A DNA stretch of 64,000 nucleotides, from positions 1,240,001 through 1,304,000 of the forward strand of contig NZ_CP014504.1 of NCBI RefSeq assembly GCF_001590605.1. The letters run 5' to 3'. Shown piece by piece: positions 11,827 through 31,252 of this stretch. The stretch comes from Pedobacter cryoconitis (lineage in GTDB: Bacteria > Bacteroidota > Bacteroidia > Sphingobacteriales > Sphingobacteriaceae). A program made the translations under genes and the position numbers. The notes under the pieces are model-generated. The model was not told the DNA's origin and ran no database searches. It was given only the letters and a program-made list of their open reading frames with translations. Within the stretch, counting starts at the first letter, position 1, and each line of letters starts with the position of its first letter.

Positions 11827-13092
11827 TCATAAAATAAAATAATACTTTTCTTCAATTTTAGTGAGCAATTTGTTACAGCAAACTTTTTTCCGTTCCTGAT
11901 AACTTAATGGCCTGATTAAACTGTATTCTTCTGGTAGAAATAACTTGTTTTCATCAATAATCAACAGGAGCTGATTACCTGAAAACTGATTAGCAACTGC
12001 CTGGACTGTTTCTTCGCTGGTAATCAGAAAATATGTTGTGGCAAAGTCTTCCTGTAAAAAATATTCTATAAGATTGAGGAGGAATGGATTAGCGTCTTTG
12101 CCTAAATATATGACTGCAAAGGCATAAATCCCTTTGGTCTTATTTTGAAGTACCTCAATATGCTCATCGGTAAATATTGATTTATAATATAAGAATTCTT
12201 CAAAAAATGGACTGCTGGATTTCAACTCTTGCGCTACAGTGTCAATAGAAATCTGGTACTTGTTCCTGAAATAGTTGTTGATCCACGCACACATGGCCGG
12301 GCCATAATCTGGGTCTCCGAAATATCCGCTGGTTTGAAAACCAGGATAATATTCAGGATGAAAACCTGTGAAATTTGCTTCGATGATATAATATTCATCT
12401 GCATGGGTTATGCCGATGTCCCAACCGATCAAAGCGCCTTGTAAAATCGTTGCTGGTAGCGAAGCCAGTACTTTTTGTACAAATATTTCTGCAGCAGAAC
12501 TTTTAGAAGAATCCACACCAGCCATGATAAAAGTCAGGCCATATATTAGATCGTTGCCAAAAGTATGAACCCTGAATTCTTCGTTAAGATCTAATCTTTC
12601 TTGCAGCATCCACTTTTCCGGCTGATCTTCCCTTTCCTGACTTTTCTTTTCCTGGTAAAGCTTAATAATGTCTTCCAGTTCGGCTGTTCTGTCAAAACTA
12701 GCTGCCTGGCCTGTGCGATGTCCTAATGTAGATTTGACAAAAAAACCATGCGCACATAGTTCCCTGATTTTCTTAAGTCCATTATTTTCGGCTAATAATT
12801 CTGAAAGACCAATTGTTTTGGCAACACAACCAGGGAAATAGTGATTTAAAATTTGATACTGTCTGTATTTATTATCCAGCCTCCACCTGAAAACATGATG
12901 TTCATTTACATTCAGTTTTTTTAGGATCGCCCTGATAAACAATACTCCCATATTACCAGAGATGTTAGCGAGTAAAACAGGATCACGCCATAACTCAAAG
13001 GTCTCGTTTACTGATTTCCTTTTAATAACCTGGACACTGGAATTTTCAATATCAGATATTATGCTTTCTAAGACATTCGTATATAGCTCCAT
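11827..13092 (-). CDS. ATP-grasp-like protein
   Basis: The 421-aa protein has no signal peptide. Its middle part carries ATP-grasp features: a Lys/Gly-rich strand and loop (HGFFVKSTLGHRTGQ, about residues 116-130), WMLQERLD at the adenine-hinge position (about residue 163), and IGWDIGITHADEYYIIEANFTGF around residues 220-242, in which EAN is the Mg2+-binding ExN motif. ATP-grasp enzymes join carboxylates to amines or thiols via acyl phosphates. The specific product is unknown. The C-terminal 130 residues look like an extra domain. A thioesterase gene 73 bp upstream runs the same way, so the two may form one transcription unit. Confidence 0.6.
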   Translation of the reverse strand: MELYTNVLESIISDIENSSVQVIKRKSVNETFELWRDPVLLANISGNMGVLFIRAILKKLNVNEHHVFRWRLDNKYRQYQILNHYFPGCVAKTIGLSELLAENNGLKKIRELCAHGFFVKSTLGHRTGQAASFDRTAELEDIIKLYQEKKSQEREDQPEKWMLQERLDLNEEFRVHTFGNDLIYGLTFIMAGVDSSKSSAAEIFVQKVLASLPATILQGALIGWDIGITHADEYYIIEANFTGFHPEYYPGFQTSGYFGDPDYGPAMCAWINNYFRNKYQISIDTVAQELKSSSPFFEEFLYYKSIFTDEHIEVLQNKTKGIYAFAVIYLGKDANPFLLNLIEYFLQEDFATTYFLITSEETVQAVANQFSGNQLLLIIDENKLFLPEEYSLIRPLSYQERKKVCCNKLLTKIEEKYYFIL

Positions 13093-20117: not shown

Positions 20118-20864
20118 ATGGCGTACAGGTGTGTAATTATTGATGATGAGCCTCATGCAATAGAGGGCTTAAAGAACTATATGATAAAGATCCCTGAACT
20201 GGAATTAATAGCTACTTATACTGATCCTGTATATGCATTACAAGAGATTGCTAAAGGAGATGCGATTGATTTGCTGATCACTGACATTGAGATGCCAGAA
20301 ATATCAGGATTGGAGCTCGCTGGGTTAATCAGGGCAAAAACAGATAAATTGCTGATCACTACTGCTCACACTAAATATGCTTATGAAGCTTTTGATATAC
20401 AGGCAGATGGCTATTTGCTAAAGCCTTATTCCTTTGCCAGATTTTTGGACACAATCCATAAATTATTTCCTCCATCAACCCAGGATTCAGATTTTGCCGG
20501 AGTCCAACGTGACCAGAACTTTTTTTTTATAAAAAGTAAAGACGACAATTTGAAACTGGTTAAGATCCGTTATGATGATATTGTGCTGATTGAAAGTAAA
20601 CTTAACTATGTGATGGTTTATACAGTCGACAGAAGTATTCTGACCTATATCTCCTTAATAGAGATTTCAAATAGAATGACCAGAGAAAGAGGTTTTGAAC
20701 AGTTTCACCGCAGCTTCATTCTGAACAATAAACACATTGAATACATTGAAGGTAATACGATCGCATTGAATAACGGAAGAAAAATTACCGTAGGTGAGCA
20801 TTATAAAAAGGATTTTAATGCATTTGTAAACCGTAGTCTGTTAAAAGCAAAACGCAAACCATAA
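20118..20864 (+). CDS. LytTR-family response regulator
   Basis: The 248-aa protein has an N-terminal receiver domain (residues 1-120) with acidic pocket IIDDEPHA, phosphoacceptor D56 in LLITDIEMPE, T in LITTAHT and K in YLLKPY. The C-terminal LytTR DNA-binding domain (about 140-243) shows IVLIESKLNYVMVYT and FEQFHRSFILNNKHIEYIEGN. It should activate target genes when phosphorylated by a LytS/HPK-type histidine kinase. No kinase gene is adjacent, so it is an orphan. The outer-membrane protein and RiPP cluster downstream on the same strand are candidate targets, by position only. Confidence 0.9.
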   Translation: MAYRCVIIDDEPHAIEGLKNYMIKIPELELIATYTDPVYALQEIAKGDAIDLLITDIEMPEISGLELAGLIRAKTDKLLITTAHTKYAYEAFDIQADGYLLKPYSFARFLDTIHKLFPPSTQDSDFAGVQRDQNFFFIKSKDDNLKLVKIRYDDIVLIESKLNYVMVYTVDRSILTYISLIEISNRMTRERGFEQFHRSFILNNKHIEYIEGNTIALNNGRKITVGEHYKKDFNAFVNRSLLKAKRKP

Positions 20865-23458: not shown

Positions 23459-23573
23459 AATTGGTTAGTTAAATAGGATGTATTCTCTTGTTTCATTCAA
23501 ATAAATATATAAATGAAAGGGCAAATGCCATGTCCTTACTGATGGCTGATTTTCAACCTTAAACTATAATCCC

Positions 23574-23783
23574 ATGAAAAAAAATGCAAAAATCGCATCA
23601 AGCTCAGAAGAAAAAAGTATCCTTAGCGATGCTGTTAATTCTTCAGAAAACGAACAATTGGATCTTTACAAAGCCATTTTTGGTGGAGTAAGTTCTGGCT
23701 GCTCAGTTGTTGCTGTTGGCAACCTGCGTTCGAAAGTGTCTGCTTATGATAAGCATGAAACATTCTTACAAGCAATTAGCTAA
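23574..23783 (+). CDS. RiPP precursor peptide with double-glycine leader
   Basis: The 69-aa peptide has a Ser/Glu-rich N-terminus, then an amphipathic helix EQLDLYKAIFGG (residues 27-38) with the GG that C39 peptidases cut after. The predicted core is residues 39-69. It starts VSSGCSVVAVGN, with a single Cys at residue 43, and ends with the consecutive triads YDK (58-60), HET (61-63) and FLQ (64-66), then AIS. Radical SAM/SPASM enzymes of the cyclophane (triceptide) group link an aromatic ring to the third residue of such aromatic-X-X triads, so these are plausible sites. A strong terminator directly behind it and the modification and export genes downstream support the assignment. I know of no exact family. 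Confidence 0.8.
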   Translation: MKKNAKIASSSEEKSILSDAVNSSENEQLDLYKAIFGGVSSGCSVVAVGNLRSKVSAYDKHETFLQAIS

Positions 23784-23791
23784 TTGATTTC

Positions 23792-23830
23792 ATAGATAGC
23801 CAATTTTAGCTAATTGGCTATCTATTTTTT
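23792..23830 (+). terminator. Intrinsic terminator/attenuator behind the RiPP precursor
   Basis: A perfect 14-bp stem (23792-23805 with 23812-23825), 6-nt loop and a run of T's begins 9 bp after the precursor stop. It should let most transcripts end after the precursor, with read-through feeding the maturation genes, the normal stoichiometry for RiPP operons. Confidence 0.88.
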
Positions 23831-23887
23831 ATGGAGGCTTAAGACTGAACCACAATCACATTGAAATAACCTGAACTTTATTTAACT

Positions 23888-25153
23888 ATGAAAAAAGTAA
23901 TCTCTTATGTGCTTAAGATTGCTAGTCGCTGCAATCTTAATTGTTCGTATTGCTATATGTACAATTTAGGGGATCAAACCTATCTGAAACAGCCAAAATT
24001 CATGTCTTTAGCTACAGTGGCGGCATTGTCTGAACGTTTGAAGTCCTATTGTAAAAACGCAGGTATAGATTATGTTCAGATCGTATTTCATGGAGGAGAA
24101 CCACTTTTACTGAGTAAGGAATATTTCAAACTCTGTATCAATCTTTTTAAGGATACTTCGCCGGAAATTGAATTTGGTTTTACCATTCAAACCAATGGGG
24201 TGACAATGGATAAAGAGTGGTATGACTTATTCAAAGCTCATGATGTTAAGATTGGGATTAGTATAGACGGGCCTAAAAAGTATCATGATGCCTTCCGTGT
24301 ATTTCATAATGGAAAAGGTTCTTATAATCAGGTTGCCGAGGCAGTTAAATTGGGTAGGGGAAATGGCCTGTCGGGTATTCTTATGGTGATGAATACAAAC
24401 ATTCCAATCCAGGAATTTTACAAGGAGCTTAAAGAACTTAAAGTAGGCAATTTGAATTTACTGTTTCCAGACGGCCATTATGATAAACTCCCTGAAGGAT
24501 TTGATGCAGTGAGATTTGGTGAGGATGATTACACCCCCTATGCTGATTGGCTGATAGGACTTTTTATCCTATGGAAAGGGGATAAAAACAGACCTGTAAT
24601 CAGGTTCTTTGAAACGCTGATCGAGATGATTGCAGGAGAAGAAAATGTGGGGAACCAGGCTTTCGGCAAAAAGAAAAACGGAGTAGTGGTTATAGAAACG
24701 GATGGCGGGATAGAAGTGGTAGATTCATTACGCGCATGTTATGAAGGGATTACCAGGAATAACCTTAATATTCATGAAAATGAAATCTCAGATCTTTTTG
24801 AGGATGATATTTTTGAAGTCTACTACAATGCACATGATATGGTGTGTGAACAATGTCTGAACTGCCCGGTTTATGATTTCTGTGGTGGTGGTTTTCTAGG
24901 CAGCAGATATGCGAATGATAATGGTTTTGATAACCCAACCATTTACTGCAAAGATATTATCAGGATTTTAAGTTTTATACAAAATGATATTCTTGATAGT
25001 CTTCCTGTTGAGGTTACGGCTAAAATGGAAGCTGAAAAATTAGTTTATTCAGAACTCATTCAGGAACTCAAAAATCCTCCTTTAATTGAAATAGAAAGTA
25101 ACGTTAAGCAAAAACTAATTTCTTTTAAGCAGCCAGCTGTATTATGTACTTAA
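23888..25153 (+). CDS. Radical SAM/SPASM peptide maturase
   Basis: The 421-aa protein has the radical SAM cluster motif CNLNCSYC (Cys 15, 19, 22), the FHGGEPLL GGE motif for SAM, and a C-terminal SPASM region. The SPASM region has Cys near residue 285 (RACYEG), CEQCLNCPVYDFCGGG near 318-331 and YC near 352; these ligate one or two auxiliary 4Fe-4S clusters. The GGGFLGSRYANDNGFDNPTIYC arrangement resembles FxsB/GrrM-type cyclophane-forming maturases as I remember them. It likely abstracts a beta-hydrogen from core residues and forms C-C crosslinks in the cytoplasm. No separate RRE gene is seen. Its 3' end overlaps the first oxygenase-like gene by 10 bp. Confidence 0.9.
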   Translation: MKKVISYVLKIASRCNLNCSYCYMYNLGDQTYLKQPKFMSLATVAALSERLKSYCKNAGIDYVQIVFHGGEPLLLSKEYFKLCINLFKDTSPEIEFGFTIQTNGVTMDKEWYDLFKAHDVKIGISIDGPKKYHDAFRVFHNGKGSYNQVAEAVKLGRGNGLSGILMVMNTNIPIQEFYKELKELKVGNLNLLFPDGHYDKLPEGFDAVRFGEDDYTPYADWLIGLFILWKGDKNRPVIRFFETLIEMIAGEENVGNQAFGKKKNGVVVIETDGGIEVVDSLRACYEGITRNNLNIHENEISDLFEDDIFEVYYNAHDMVCEQCLNCPVYDFCGGGFLGSRYANDNGFDNPTIYCKDIIRILSFIQNDILDSLPVEVTAKMEAEKLVYSELIQELKNPPLIEIESNVKQKLISFKQPAVLCT

Positions 25154-25986
25154 AAAAAGGACTTCACATTTTTAGTGACCTGGACACTATAGCAGAACAA
25201 TTATCTATTAATAATGGGACGATGCCGGCAACCATTGAAACAGGATTGAATTATCATGAAGAATCCTATATTCCAAAACGGGAGTGGCGTAAACTGGAGC
25301 TTGCCGAACAGCGGATATTAATAGCGGATCACCGGAATACTGATTTCCGGCGAAGCATTTATATTGGAGAAATCCCTGAGAATTTAAAGGAATCACTTCT
25401 TTCACTCGGTTTGCAAGAATGTACGCAATTGGATCAGATATACCCTAAGATGAAAGAAGACGAGGAAAAAGTGAAGGCCATTAATACGGAGCTGGATACA
25501 TTTTTACACCCTTTTTCCTCTGCTAAAAATTATAAATTTCACCGGATCACAAGAGCAATGCCCAATCGGGAAACCATAACCTGTCTTTATATGGAAGAGA
25601 AGTTTATCTATATAGGATTACATATTGATCAGAGTAAGCATTTTACTCCTCATACAGCCCATAAATCCGGCAATCGTATTTCCATAAATTTAAGTAAAGA
25701 AACCCGGCATCTGGCGTTCACTAATCTTTCTTTAATACAGGCCTTTAACATGGTAAAACAAAAAACAGGCCTAGCTGGTAAAGAAATTAATCCTGATAAT
25801 ATAGCTCATTTATTTTTTAAACATTACCCAGATTATCCTGTGATCAGAATTGCTCAGAAACCTTATCAATATTATATAGCACCTACAGATAACTTTTTTC
25901 ATGATGCAACCACACTCGGTAACAAGGAAATAGATATTACCATCGTTTATACGGGTGTTTTTGATAGAGCTGGAATAAATAATTGA
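25144..25986 (+). CDS. Putative Fe(II)/2-oxoglutarate-type oxygenase, RiPP paralogue 1
   Basis: This 280-aa soluble protein is the first of three tandem paralogues. It has the HxD pair at H160/D162 (GLHIDQS) and a late His at 253 in YYIAPTDNFFHDATTLG, a spacing of 93 residues that is identical in all three. That pattern, set in beta-rich sequence (SGNRISINL, DITIVYTGVF), fits the double-stranded beta-helix iron site of 2-oxoglutarate oxygenases. No obvious Arg follows the distal His; the conserved GNR or a Lys might bind 2-oxoglutarate. This copy is the most divergent (HID instead of HND, ATT instead of GST). It overlaps the radical SAM gene, so co-translation is expected. The oxygenase call is inferred from motifs only. 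Confidence 0.6.
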   Translation: MYLKKGLHIFSDLDTIAEQLSINNGTMPATIETGLNYHEESYIPKREWRKLELAEQRILIADHRNTDFRRSIYIGEIPENLKESLLSLGLQECTQLDQIYPKMKEDEEKVKAINTELDTFLHPFSSAKNYKFHRITRAMPNRETITCLYMEEKFIYIGLHIDQSKHFTPHTAHKSGNRISINLSKETRHLAFTNLSLIQAFNMVKQKTGLAGKEINPDNIAHLFFKHYPDYPVIRIAQKPYQYYIAPTDNFFHDATTLGNKEIDITIVYTGVFDRAGINN

Positions 25987-25989
25987 TAT

Positions 25990-26868
25990 ATGAAGATAAA
26001 AAAGGGTATTATGCTCCACCGTCAATCCTTTGAAGATTATGAGCTGATCAAGATCAATTCGGGAGTAACTCATTATACAAAACAAGATACGGGAAAGGTT
26101 ATTTACGAAGACCTTTCATTTTTACCGTCTTACGAAGAAGACGCTTTTACTCCAAAAAAGAACTGGAGAGTATTGAGTGCTCAGGAAATTAAAACACTGA
26201 AATCAACTGATAAACGCAGTGATTCAAATACGATATATATTGGGGATATTCCCGAAAACCTGAAAAATTCATTTCAGAAATTGAATTTAGCGCAATGTAA
26301 AAACCGAAATGATGTTTTTGCAAAGTTTAAGGCGAATCCGGAAGCAACTTTAGAAATTAATCAGGCGACAGAAGAATTCTTAAAGTCTAAAGCTGATGGA
26401 AAACCATTCCGCTTTCATTATTTGGGTACAAACCTGCCAAACCTGGAAGTTGTAGCCTGTGATACGACCGTATTGCCAGCTGACCATACCGAAGAAGATA
26501 AAAAGTATATGGGTATTCACAATGATGGTACCAAGTTCGTATCACCCCATGCATTATATAAATCAGGAAACCGTCTTACAATCAATCTTGGAAAAGAAAC
26601 GCGTTCTTTTTTGTTTATAAACCTGACTATGACGCAAGCTTTGAACATGTTAAAGCAGAAAATTGATACTAAAAAACATCCTGTTGATATCATCAATATC
26701 TCTAAATATTTTTTTGAACACTTTCCTGACTATCCAGTGATTAAAATTGATCAGAAACCATATCAATACTATATCGCTCCAACTGATAATTGCTTTCATG
26801 ATGGCTCTACACTTGGAATGAAAGGATTAGATATTATCATCGTCTATTTCGGAGCATTCAGATTTTAA
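25990..26868 (+). CDS. Putative Fe(II)/2-oxoglutarate-type oxygenase, RiPP paralogue 2
   Basis: The 292-aa protein starts 3 bp after the stop of paralogue 1. It has H177/D179 (MGIHNDGTK) and H270 in YYIAPTDNCFHDGSTLG. The blocks TIYIGDIPENLK, FHYLGTNLPNLE, SGNRLTINLGKETRSFLFINL and FFEHFPDYPVIKIDQKPYQ are shared with paralogue 3 nearly unchanged. There is no signal peptide or membrane segment, so it acts in the cytoplasm, probably on the precursor before export. Hydroxylation of core residues is the natural hypothesis. The family is not one I can name, and other chemistries on a similar fold remain possible. Confidence 0.6.
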   Translation: MKIKKGIMLHRQSFEDYELIKINSGVTHYTKQDTGKVIYEDLSFLPSYEEDAFTPKKNWRVLSAQEIKTLKSTDKRSDSNTIYIGDIPENLKNSFQKLNLAQCKNRNDVFAKFKANPEATLEINQATEEFLKSKADGKPFRFHYLGTNLPNLEVVACDTTVLPADHTEEDKKYMGIHNDGTKFVSPHALYKSGNRLTINLGKETRSFLFINLTMTQALNMLKQKIDTKKHPVDIINISKYFFEHFPDYPVIKIDQKPYQYYIAPTDNCFHDGSTLGMKGLDIIIVYFGAFRF

Positions 26869-26907
26869 ATTAAATACGTATTACCTGGAATTTTATTATT
26901 TGAAAGA

Positions 26908-27786
26908 ATGAAGCTAAAAAAAGGAATTTTAATACATAACCAGCTAGAACAAGGTTATGAAGTAGTCCATATTAATTCTGGAACCGTATTACATACAGCA
27001 CTGGTGACCGAGCCTGTTAACTTTCACGGCATGGTTTATACGCCTCAGTATGAAGATAATGCCCGTATCGCTAAAAGAGACTGGAGAGCTTTAAATCGCG
27101 AAGAAATAAGAGGCATACAAGCGAAAGATAAACGGAACGATTATAATACGATTTATCTGGGTGATATTCCTGAAGCATTAAAAGCATGCTTTAAGCGATT
27201 AGACCTGGCTAATTCCAAGAGCCGCGAAGAGGTATTTGAGAAATTTTCAGGTGATGCAGCATTGACTAAAGAACTAAGCTCGAACCTCAATTCCTTTTTA
27301 TCGCCGCTTGCAGACAACAAACCATTTAATTTTCATTGTATTGGGACCAACTTGCCTAATATAGAGATGGTTGCCTGTAATACGACTAAATTACCCAAGG
27401 ATTTTAAACCTAAGGATATTAAATATATGGGTATGCACAATGATGGGACCCAATCTATGACCATCCATACCGCTCATAAATTCGGGAACCGGATTTCTAT
27501 TAATTTAGGCAATGATACCCGGTCATTTTTATTTGTAAACCTATCCATGATACAGGCTTTAAATATGATCGGAAAGAAAATAGACCTCAAAAAGAACAAC
27601 GTTAATATTGCAAACATACCCAAGTTCTTTTTTGAACATTTTCCTGATTATCCGGTCATCAGGGTGCAGCAAAAACCTTATCAGTATTATATTGCTCCAA
27701 CTGACAATTGCTTTCACGATGGTTCCACTTTAGGCAATAAGGAATTGGATATTACGATGGTTTATTTTGGGGCTTTCCAATGCTGA
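26908..27786 (+). CDS. Putative Fe(II)/2-oxoglutarate-type oxygenase, RiPP paralogue 3
   Basis: The 292-aa protein is closest to paralogue 2: same length, iron-site residues H177/D179 (MGMHNDGTQ) and H270 (NCFHDGSTLG), and the common N-terminal start MKLKKGILIHNQ. The shared N-terminal half (DWRALNREEIRG, TIYLGDIPEALK) has no motif I recognise and might bind the leader peptide. The gap to the preceding gene is 39 bp; its stop overlaps the exporter start by 7 bp. Three active-looking copies, rather than one active and two decayed, suggest each works on a different residue or partner. Confidence 0.6.
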   Translation: MKLKKGILIHNQLEQGYEVVHINSGTVLHTALVTEPVNFHGMVYTPQYEDNARIAKRDWRALNREEIRGIQAKDKRNDYNTIYLGDIPEALKACFKRLDLANSKSREEVFEKFSGDAALTKELSSNLNSFLSPLADNKPFNFHCIGTNLPNIEMVACNTTKLPKDFKPKDIKYMGMHNDGTQSMTIHTAHKFGNRISINLGNDTRSFLFVNLSMIQALNMIGKKIDLKKNNVNIANIPKFFFEHFPDYPVIRVQQKPYQYYIAPTDNCFHDGSTLGNKELDITMVYFGAFQC

Positions 27787-29966
27787 AATTTTACAAGTAT
27801 CCCTTTCAGAAGCAATTAGACTTAATGGACTGTGGTCCCGCTTGTTTAAAAATGATTTCTGAATATTATCAGATCACAACCAGTATATCAGAATTAAGAG
27901 AGCTATGCAATACTTCGCGCCTTGGAAGTAATATCGGGGATATTATGTACGGCGCGGAACAGGTGGGCTTTAAGGCTTTGGTATTTAAAACTACGATAGA
28001 CTATCTTAAGGAAAAACAACCTTTTCCATGTATTATTCACTGGAGGAAAAACCATTATGTTGTTTTATACCAGATTAAAAATGGGAAGTATACGATTGGT
28101 GACCCTGCCTATGGGTTTGCAGTTTTGTCCGAAAAAGAATTTACAGAGGGCTGGGCGGGCAATGGGGAAAAGGGGATCGCTTTATTTGTCGAACCTGATT
28201 TAGAAAGTGATTATATCACAAAAACTGCCGGCGCTGAAGGAAAAAGTATAGGCTGGCAATTTGTAGATTTTCTCAGGCCACATGTAAAGCAGATAGGCTT
28301 TCTTCTTTTGGTGATCATGATTGCCAGTGCGATATCCATGCTTATTCCAAGAACTATTGAGTACATGACGGATAAGGGGGTAGAAAAGAAAAACATAAAT
28401 ATTATATGGAAAGTCCTGCTGTTTCAATTTGTATTATTCGGGAGTTTAACCTTTACAAATTATATCAGAAGTTTAATCCAGGCAAAACTGAGCACTAAGT
28501 TAAGTATTGGTATTATCTCAGATTTCCTGGTAAAGCTACTGATGCTGCCGATTTCTTTTTTTGACACCAAGAACCATGCAGATATTTATCAGCGGATAGA
28601 TGACCATTCCAGAATTGAAACTTTTCTGTCTACAAAATTGGTGTCTTTTATCTTTTCGATATCGCTTTTAGTGGTGTACATTTTACAGATGTTCTTTTTT
28701 GATAAATACATTGTAATAAGCTTTCTATTGTTCACAGCTTTATCATTTGTGTGGTTTTTCTTGTTTATGGAGCGGCGTAGAAAGCTTGATTACCGCAGAT
28801 TCGGGCTCGCTATTGAAGAAAGACATTATTTGAATGATTTGATCTCAGGTATGACGGAGATCAAGCTTAATAACGCACAATCGGGAAGAGTAGACAGCTG
28901 GCAGGAATTGCAACATAAATTATATGATTTCAAGTTAAGTAACCTGAAACTTTCACAGCTACAGCAGAATGGGATAAATACAGTCAATCAGTTGAAAAGT
29001 ATTTTTATAACTTTTTTATGTTCGTACTGGGTAATTAACGGCACGATAACTTTTGGGGTGATGCTGAGTATCGGTTATATCGTTGGTCAGCTGACGCTGC
29101 CAATTCAGGACATCATGAATTTTTTTCACGACTATCAGGACGCAAAAACTTCCTTTGAAAGATTAAATGAGATACAATTAAAAACAAATGAAAATGATCA
29201 GGGGAAAATTAGTTTTCCTGGTGAGCTGAATAGGGGATTCGATGTAAATAATCTGTCTTTTAAATACGCTGGGATTCATAATCCTTATGTGCTGCGGGGA
29301 ATAGACCTATTTATCCCCAAGGGAAAAATTACGGCTATAGTTGGTACAAGCGGCAGTGGTAAGACCACATTAATGAAGCTATTGTTATCATTTTATCAGC
29401 CTCAGGACGGTGCTATTTTAATTGATGATATCAATTTGCAAACTATCAATACAGATGAGTTCAGAAGCCAGTGTGGAGTAGTGATGCAAGACGGATATAT
29501 ATACAGCTCGTCTATTGCACAAAATATAGCCATGAGCGAAAAAAATGTAGATATTGAGCGGGTTTACCAGGCACTTAAAATTGCTTGTCTAGACGAATTT
29601 GTCGCATCACTTCCACAAAAACACAACACAGCACTAGGCAGTACCGGAGTAGATTTAAGTGGTGGGCAAAAACAACGTTTATTCATTGCAAGGGCAGTCT
29701 ATAAAAATCCTCAGATCATTTTTTTTGATGAAGCTACGAATGCACTGGATTCAAATAATGAGCGGGCAATCATGGATAATCTGGAGCATTTTTTTATTGG
29801 TAAAACTGTATTGGTAATTGCACACAGATTAAGTACTGTTAAGAATGCAGCACAAATTGTGGTGCTGGAAAATGGAGAAATTGTAGAGCTTGGCTCTCAT
29901 GCAGAGTTAACCAGAACCAGAGGCAAGTATTATGAGTTAGTGAAAAATCAGCTCGAGCTCGGTTAA
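27780..29966 (+). CDS. Peptidase-containing ABC exporter (C39 peptidase, PCAT)
   Basis: The 728-aa protein has an N-terminal C39 peptidase with Q12, catalytic C18 (DLMDCGPACLKM), H92 (KNHYVVLY) and D108 (IGDPAYG). A six-helix ABC membrane domain follows (about residues 165-440), then an ATPase with Walker A GTSGSGKTT (about 522), signature LSGGQKQR (about 626), Walker B IIFFDEATNALD (about 647) and the H-loop AHRLS. PCATs cut leader peptides after a double glycine and pump the core across the inner membrane; the precursor at 23574 carries exactly such a site. No HlyD-type periplasmic partner is adjacent. Overlap with the preceding gene ties it to the same operon. Confidence 0.93.
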   Translation: MLKFYKYPFQKQLDLMDCGPACLKMISEYYQITTSISELRELCNTSRLGSNIGDIMYGAEQVGFKALVFKTTIDYLKEKQPFPCIIHWRKNHYVVLYQIKNGKYTIGDPAYGFAVLSEKEFTEGWAGNGEKGIALFVEPDLESDYITKTAGAEGKSIGWQFVDFLRPHVKQIGFLLLVIMIASAISMLIPRTIEYMTDKGVEKKNINIIWKVLLFQFVLFGSLTFTNYIRSLIQAKLSTKLSIGIISDFLVKLLMLPISFFDTKNHADIYQRIDDHSRIETFLSTKLVSFIFSISLLVVYILQMFFFDKYIVISFLLFTALSFVWFFLFMERRRKLDYRRFGLAIEERHYLNDLISGMTEIKLNNAQSGRVDSWQELQHKLYDFKLSNLKLSQLQQNGINTVNQLKSIFITFLCSYWVINGTITFGVMLSIGYIVGQLTLPIQDIMNFFHDYQDAKTSFERLNEIQLKTNENDQGKISFPGELNRGFDVNNLSFKYAGIHNPYVLRGIDLFIPKGKITAIVGTSGSGKTTLMKLLLSFYQPQDGAILIDDINLQTINTDEFRSQCGVVMQDGYIYSSSIAQNIAMSEKNVDIERVYQALKIACLDEFVASLPQKHNTALGSTGVDLSGGQKQRLFIARAVYKNPQIIFFDEATNALDSNNERAIMDNLEHFFIGKTVLVIAHRLSTVKNAAQIVVLENGEIVELGSHAELTRTRGKYYELVKNQLELG

Positions 29967-30058: not shown

Positions 30059-31252
30059 ATGGGCCGGAGACGCTTCTTCCTGATTTTTTGTATTCTGGCA
30101 ATTTTTGTGTTTGCGATTGTAAAATGTACACCAGTAAAAAGTAAAAGTAACGACAGCAGGGGACCAGCCTACGCCGGGAGTGCTACCTGTGTAAGTTGTC
30201 ATCAGGACCTTACAAAATCTGCGGTGCACAATTCCCATTTTAATGCTTCAAAAATACTCACTGCACCTGGTTCTGCAGACAGCCTGCATATACCTGATGG
30301 AGAGTTCATTTTTAATGAAAACACTAAAGTGCAGGTAAAAAACCGTGCTGATGGCCTGTATCAGTCTGCGCTGCTCAATGGTGTGGACAGAAAAACTGAA
30401 CATACAGCTATGATTTTTGGTGCAGGAAAAAGCGCGTATACATTCGCATTCTGGTACGGCAAACAACTGATGCAAATGCCATTGAATTACCTGACCAAAG
30501 AACATCAATGGGTAAACAGCCCGGGTTTCCCTGAAGACCAGATTTATTTTGGCAGGCCAATCATTGCGCGTTGTTTAGAGTGCCATAGCTCTTTCGCGGA
30601 CAAAAAGCTGGTACAAGGGCCTAATTTTTCAATCACGGAAGAATATGTTAAAAACTCCATTATCGCAGGTATAGATTGCGAACGTTGTCATGGCCCTGCG
30701 GCTCAGCACGTCACCTTTCATCAAGAGAACCCTACGGTGAAAACGGCCAATTTTATGGTGAGTTATAAAAAACTGGCGTTATCCCGAAGAATAGATGCAT
30801 GTGGGGTATGTCATTCAGGAACGGGTATCCAGACGGTGAGTTCAACCTTTAATTTTAAACCGGGAGATACGTTAAAAACATTACCTCAATATAATGCGTA
30901 TAGCGGAGAAGATCCCGATGTACACGGTAAACAAAAGCCACTGCTTGAGGCTAGTTTGTGTTATAAAATTGGTAAAGCAGAATGTATTACCTGCCATGAT
31001 ATGCATGATAATAAGAGCTCTGGCGTGGCAATTTATTCCGCTAAATGTATCAGCTGTCATCAGGATGTGAAACATGAAACATTGAAAGAGAAGAACAAAG
31101 CTGTGCTGGCAAAGAACTGTATCGACTGCCATATGCCCATCAAAGAATCTCACGCTATTGGTTTTCAGATGAGCAACAGCAAAGAAAAGATACCCTATAA
31201 ATTACGTACGCACCGTATTGCAATTTATAATGAGCTGGTTAAGAGAAAATAA
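30059..31252 (+). CDS. Multihaem c-type cytochrome (seven CxxCH)
   Basis: The 397-aa protein has a membrane-targeting N-terminus (RRRFFLIFCILAIFVFAIVKC; the Cys could be a lipoprotein anchor) and seven CxxCH haem-binding motifs: CVSCH, CLECH, CERCH, CGVCH, CITCH, CISCH and CIDCH. The spacing resembles cytochrome c554/tetrahaem-type domains duplicated. It should sit in the periplasm and transfer electrons; its partner is unknown. It follows the RiPP exporter by 92 bp on the same strand. A functional tie to the peptide is unproven. It ends at a strong hairpin. Confidence 0.87.
   Translation: MGRRRFFLIFCILAIFVFAIVKCTPVKSKSNDSRGPAYAGSATCVSCHQDLTKSAVHNSHFNASKILTAPGSADSLHIPDGEFIFNENTKVQVKNRADGLYQSALLNGVDRKTEHTAMIFGAGKSAYTFAFWYGKQLMQMPLNYLTKEHQWVNSPGFPEDQIYFGRPIIARCLECHSSFADKKLVQGPNFSITEEYVKNSIIAGIDCERCHGPAAQHVTFHQENPTVKTANFMVSYKKLALSRRIDACGVCHSGTGIQTVSSTFNFKPGDTLKTLPQYNAYSGEDPDVHGKQKPLLEASLCYKIGKAECITCHDMHDNKSSGVAIYSAKCISCHQDVKHETLKEKNKAVLAKNCIDCHMPIKESHAIGFQMSNSKEKIPYKLRTHRIAIYNELVKRK

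Follow-up and report, generated by a model that had tools for sequence, protein, structure and literature searches.

Triceptides are ribosomally synthesized and post-translationally modified peptides (RiPPs) with an aromatic-x-x core motif (Omega1-X2-X3). Their maturases include the FxsB (TIGR04269) and XyeB (TIGR04496) families and YhhB (NF041707), a radical S-adenosylmethionine (SAM) enzyme that joins C3 of a tyrosine to Cbeta of an arginine at positions i and i+2 (PMC11002830). Also relevant is MicC, the structure of which is entitled 'alpha-ketoglutarate-dependent non-heme iron oxygenase MicC' (PDB 9vkm); a search of the literature available found no paper on this enzyme or its substrate. 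The present study concerns an operon of Pedobacter cryoconitis that encodes relatives of both YhhB and MicC. It lies in a stretch of 64,000 nucleotides (contig NZ_CP014504.1, positions 1,240,001 to 1,304,000 of the forward strand), here called the window, and probably encodes a RiPP of the triceptide type that is tailored by an array of 2-oxoglutarate (2OG)/Fe(II) oxygenases of the MicC family. The peptide class is already known, and a triceptide-like pathway with such an array is a new variation on it; no description was found of the oxygenase array, its partner outer-membrane protein (OMP) or its conserved RNA element.

The maturase has a CxxxCxxC motif at residues 15/19/22, and neither these radical SAM cysteines nor those of SPASM vary among 17 homologues. 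Its best NCBIfam models were YhhB (323 bits, E about 1e-96, below the cut-off of 445) and FxsB (308 bits, E about 1e-92, below the cut-off of 370), and in the PDB it matched ChlB (9gm3, E=1e-55). By profile score it belongs to the same radical SAM/SPASM branch as the FxsB and XyeB families but, unlike them, it stays under their cut-offs (195 bits against 450 for XyeB) and its precursor has no FxS motif. The YhhB type is its best-scoring maturase family, and with the YhhB-type triceptides the operon shares a short precursor encoded beside the radical SAM gene, and an aromatic-x-basic core motif. The latter reads Y-D-K/R in all 18 homologous precursors (position 60 is Lys or Arg throughout), which fits the YhhB reaction, since YhhB couples Tyr with an Arg two residues on. 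Besides the YhhB model match, the window operon has a double-glycine (GG) leader, a C39 exporter and an OMP gene, and the operon family carries three or four oxygenases; the comparison with the published Yhh cluster covers maturase, precursor and motif. That the maturase forms a C-C crosslink, as had been proposed from the sequence, is supported by its best matches, YhhB and FxsB, both of which form cyclophanes and score far above the other maturases.

The three paralogues O1–O3 gave only chance-level matches to Pfam, NCBIfam and PHROGs, and given the lack of a Pfam or NCBIfam model, routine annotation would label them hypothetical. Each carries an HxD...H triad, invariant in 61 of 61 homologues, and a profile of these homologues matched MicC over its full length (profile positions 3-290, E=5e-38). 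O3 by itself matched MicC in a phmmer search (E=5e-18). The HxD...H sites are common to MicC and the window proteins, which are about 26-31% identical to it and differ in occurring as three or four tandem paralogues. An AlphaFold2 model of O3 (predicted local distance difference test score 94.7) was closest to 8zyb (Z 9.6, 174 residues aligned, root-mean-square deviation 4.0) and KdoO (6a2e, Z 9.1). The top matches listed for it were Fe/2OG enzymes, with the double-stranded beta-helix fold of 2OG oxygenases, the structure library being one without MicC, which thus could not appear. Sequence and model together give good support to the earlier description of O1–O3 as oxygenase-like and place them in the MicC family, as proteins of the 2OG/Fe(II) oxygenase type. 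An independent tie between this family and triceptides comes from a Nostoc plasmid (NZ_CP040302.1), where a relative (28-31% identical) directly follows the gene of a GrrM/OscB triceptide maturase. The gene succession is alike, but that cluster has a single oxygenase-family member, a different precursor (with NWDN and QWNDSW) and an additional PhyH-type dioxygenase.

The sequence-only reading had proposed a complete RiPP operon, running on one strand from precursor, terminator and maturase through three HxD...H paralogues to a C39 peptidase/ATP-binding cassette (ABC) exporter. All six open reading frames (ORFs) and the terminator were found where it had placed them (Table 1), and independent evidence supports the RiPP assignment as well as the readings of maturase, oxygenases and export. 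"Complete" was right for the six genes and the terminator but missed the OMP gene, the RNA element and the fourth paralogue present elsewhere. The combination, which it could not name, is now nameable in part, by a YhhB/FxsB-like triceptide maturase and MicC-family oxygenases. The maturase and O1 genes share 10 nt and the O3 and exporter genes 7 nt, with gaps of 3 nt between O1 and O2 and 39 nt between O2 and O3.

Table 1. Features of the operon and its 5' flank (positions in the window).
Feature	Position	Strand	Details
Outer-membrane beta-barrel protein, 809 aa	21029-23458	+	CarboxypepD_reg + OMP_b-brl_3, TonB-receptor-like
H-type RNA pseudoknot (predicted)	23517-23546	+	P1 23517-23522/23532-23537; P2 23527-23531/23542-23546
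Precursor, 69 aa	23574-23783	+	ORF
Terminator hairpin between precursor and maturase genes	23792-23825	+	14-pair stem, T-rich tail
Radical SAM/SPASM peptide maturase, 421 aa, YhhB/FxsB-like	23888-25153	+	PF04055 E=4e-18
O1, 2OG/Fe(II) oxygenase-type paralogue, group A, 280 aa	25144-25986	+	H160, D162, H253
O2, 2OG/Fe(II) oxygenase-type paralogue, group B, 292 aa	25990-26868	+	H177, D179, H270
O3, 2OG/Fe(II) oxygenase-type paralogue, group C, 292 aa	26908-27786	+	H177, D179, H270
C39 peptidase/ABC exporter, 728 aa	27780-29966	+	PF03412, PF00664, PF00005

A pattern-based scan with the paralogue alignment covered 84,980 species genomes and returned 14 loci, all in Bacteroidota (Chitinophaga, Niastella, Longitalea, Mucilaginibacter, Flavobacterium, Aquimarina, Tenacibaculum, Kordia and one metagenome-assembled genome without a genus name). 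Whole-genome searches added two congeners and genome G236, from the same class, with just two paralogues. The operon including the precursor is present in 16 Bacteroidota genomes besides the window's own; the precursor position was readable in 17 loci, the window counted, and locus L019, which ends before it, was left out. Gene order is kept across several bacterial families, yet the operon is rare and patchy, the carriers being only the two congeners among 148 near relatives, and three, own genome included, among 395 Bacteroidota genomes. A homologous precursor lies directly 5' of the radical SAM gene in all 17 readable loci, as a tandem pair in one of them, so that no relative was seen to keep the neighbourhood and lack the peptide, the finding that would have refuted the sequence-only reading by its own criterion.

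The window precursor consists of a leader ending in LDLYKAIFGG and the core VSSGCSVVAVGNLRSKVSAYDKHETFLQAIS. Shared by all 18 precursors are K14, D30, L31, Y32, I35, F36, C43, V45, Y58, D59, F64 and L65, and a core motif F-L-(Q/R/K/L) is conserved as well. Most differences between the three copies in the genus fall on third codon positions, and a ratio of nonsynonymous to synonymous substitution rates of 0.11-0.25 between them indicates purifying selection. This, together with the same maturase adjacent in 17 of 17 readable loci, argues that the precursor is a real gene and not a chance ORF. The hairpin that follows has a folding z of -3.31, and a strong hairpin, often of different sequence, occurs at the precursor–maturase junction in every one of the 17 loci; it is likely an attenuator that raises the precursor over the enzymes.

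Several observations weigh against a triceptide-type pathway of this kind. The maturase is under the curated cut-offs of both YhhB and FxsB; it may catalyse a somewhat different reaction, and its place among the triceptides is for this reason provisional, the bond itself being predicted. For the oxygenases, Foldseek E-values alone are weak (best 1.6e-3, to KdoO), and because of this the 2OG assignment draws on the triad, the homology to MicC and the fold in combination. Nor is a basic residue evident where 2OG is classically anchored, directly behind the distal His. R205, conserved in the paralogues and in MicC, is a candidate for that role; the arginine of a GNR motif (R195), considered as a JmjC-like anchor, was weakened by MicC having Ile there. 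The GG leader predicted earlier is present in the window (IFGG) and in 16 of the 18 precursors but is not strict, as L023 has AG and L025 GK. Finally, nine loci have an exporter gene as the downstream neighbour, and L023 has a different C39-ABC gene upstream of its OMP gene, but eight loci (the seven other Flavobacteriaceae loci and L046) have none adjacent; their genomes all encode C39 proteins elsewhere.

In the pathway we propose, the terminator hairpin would leave the 69-aa precursor in excess over its enzymes, and the YhhB-like maturase would couple Tyr58, through an aromatic carbon, to Cbeta of Lys60 in the Y-D-K motif, forming a three-residue cyclophane, with a second one possible between Phe64 and Gln66. 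Crosslinking would come first and several oxidations after it, the order suggested by the sequence-only reading, with O1–O3 (groups A, B and C) each hydroxylating a different core residue. The C39 exporter would then cut after G37-G38 and release a 31-residue product, to be handled at the outer membrane by the co-inherited barrel protein, while the pseudoknot in the precursor's 5' leader would control expression.

The C39 domain (PF03412, E=5e-33), with DCGPAC at 17, NHYVV at 91 and GDPAYG at 107, is fused to an ABC transporter with Walker A and LSGGQ motifs, and these intact motifs agree with the earlier pairing of this exporter with the double-glycine leader. The barrel protein (PF14905, E=8e-79) belongs to a type of about 800 aa with an OMP_b-brl_3 domain, the gene of which directly precedes that of the precursor in all readable loci but L024 and L046 (15 of 17). 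The window OMP is 68% identical to the operon copy of Chitinophaga, 52% to that of Kordia and 50% to that of Tenacibaculum, whereas the remaining copies reach no more than 32% in these three genomes and 33% in its own. As the operon copies are so much closer, we regard the OMP as co-inherited with the operon and as one of the components of the system. It is more likely a receptor or re-uptake channel than an exit pore, and as a conserved partner it gives a way to approach what such Bacteroidota peptides do. Bacteriocins are the cargo of many known GG/C39 peptide systems, and the product could on that ground be an antibacterial peptide, with the barrel protein serving self-protection and not re-uptake of a ligand. 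This seems somewhat unlikely: barrel protein and precursor are inherited together, no further conserved gene was seen that could confer immunity, and the core hardly varies across several families, which would be unusual for a bacteriocin in an arms race. The genome itself has nine C39 peptidase matches, so several other peptide-export systems are likely in it.

A separate question is what the oxygenases do to the peptide. In a maximum-likelihood tree they form four orthologous groups, A-D, that match gene order (5 label changes, the minimum being 3 and the shuffled mean 35). The window has A, B and C, Chitinophaga and Kordia have A-D, locus L021 has A, C and D, and G236 has a group A gene and a second one that branches off at the base of B/C/D; of the four groups, A has diverged most. 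Old duplications kept in a fixed order suggest distinct, retained tasks, which we take to be hydroxylations. However, 2OG enzymes catalyse many outcomes, and the structural matches of O3 include the halogenase WelO5, AsqJ and the epimerase SnoN. Desaturation, cyclisation or epimerisation would be alternatives, or some paralogues, with the diverged group A in mind, could act only as binding partners of an active one. We think this rather improbable: the triad is intact throughout and no paralogue looks dead, while halogenation is unlikely with Asp in HxD because wild-type 2OG halogenases are not known to have this residue. If several paralogues do hydroxylate C-H bonds on one short substrate, they would be a test bed for residue selection by 2OG enzymes, and genomes that naturally lack B or D allow a direct test of which enzyme acts on which residue. 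One lead already exists, in that the residue after the invariant Cys is Pro in 8 of 10 precursors accompanied by group D and in none of 8 without it (Fisher p=0.001), a statistic to be read with the relatedness of the species in mind and with L024 and L025 as exceptions. It is a lead only, but group D, absent from the window genome, may be a prolyl hydroxylase.

Between the OMP stop codon and the precursor start is a conserved 30-nt element with two interleaved helices. Standard pairs made up 93.8% of the pair cells across 16 aligned loci, against 22-47% with slid partners, and both sides had changed at three pairs, in both helices; for example, GCCAU/AUGGC becomes GUCAU/AUGAC in Kordia and Aquimarina, and GGGC/GUCC becomes GGGU/ACCC in Niastella. 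The independent changes in this alignment are few, and row L030 is off by one base. A model that includes P2 located the element 5' of the precursor in each of the 17 readable operons apart from L046, and among 198 relatives scores over 35 bits occurred in the three carriers only. Rfam gave no match over the gathering threshold for the window stretch and seven loci. Single-sequence RNA folding did not show the pseudoknot, the program being unable to predict pseudoknots. Alternatively, the 30 nt could be a DNA operator for a transcription factor, since protein-bound dyads can also covary and a LytTR response regulator is encoded upstream in the window and its congeners. The two dyads nevertheless interleave as in an H-type pseudoknot, and L024 keeps the element though neither an OMP nor a LytTR gene is seen beside it, so that an operator appears doubtful and an RNA pseudoknot, a candidate new regulatory RNA, is preferred. 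The same locus, having the element without the OMP gene, weakened the idea that the pseudoknot is part of the OMP transcript's 3' end. Matches of model R1 outside the operon (L092-L101) look like chance, several being GCCCTTTC hairpins. The LytTR gene (20118-20864) is just 5' of the OMP gene, as in both congeners (L033, L034), and similar regulators occur near L021; its product is a possible local regulator.

It is very unlikely that the maturase instead uses Cys43 for a thioether (sactipeptide- or ranthipeptide-like) or other crosslink: this Cys is invariant in all 18 precursors, its motif CxV(V/A)A is conserved to much the same degree as YDK, and the enzyme misses the YhhB and FxsB cut-offs, but the thioether maturase models PapB, RumMC and SCIFF scored only 106, 71 and 67 bits against 323 for YhhB, the closest maturases make C-C cyclophanes, and Tyr with Arg at i+2 matches YhhB chemistry. 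The Tyr-x-Lys cyclophane is preferred. A more far-reaching scenario, which we offer tentatively and regard as unlikely in its full form, would have an ancestral 2OG oxygenase duplicate into up to four position-specific hydroxylases that keep a fixed gene order. Their poly-hydroxylated cyclophane product would be exported and then recognised, as metallophore or signal, by a dedicated, co-inherited OMP transporter, with a new pseudoknot controlling synthesis of the precursor.

Radical SAM proteins of the operon type (>718 bits) were confined to the three carriers among the 395 Bacteroidota; five genomes form the next clade (330-389 bits), which lacks oxygenases and in most cases has short precursors. 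A C39 peptidase or C39-ABC gene stands beside its radical SAM gene in L127, L128 and L129, and an outer-membrane gene in L127. With related maturases, C39 genes and no oxygenases in these sister clusters, the oxygenases seem to have been added to a chassis that was already in place. L127 and L128 resemble the window operon in their short precursor, related radical SAM protein (381-389 bits) and C39-ABC gene, and L127 also in its upstream OMP gene; they differ in lacking MicC-family genes and in their precursor motifs, WTQ/WTK in L127 and YSE/YAE in L128. L127 (4098-10073) comprises OMP, precursor, YhhB-like radical SAM and C39-ABC genes, and suggests that the OMP link is wider than the oxygenase operon.

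Plasmid relatives of the oxygenases in Streptomyces and Methylocystis had no annotated radical SAM neighbour and were set aside. A distant relative in Methylocystis parvus (L050, 6458-7471, C-terminal part) belongs to a cluster for TonB/iron ABC uptake that also contains a nitrogenase-component-like gene; no radical SAM gene is annotated there. Directly 3' of the exporter, the window encodes a multihaem cytochrome c protein (30059-31252), not seen beside the operon in relatives. Elsewhere in the window, a 421-aa protein (11827-13092) with a sub-threshold ATP-grasp match (R2K_2, E=8e-4) adjoins a 132-aa ORF, and the two could be a separate peptide-maturation locus.

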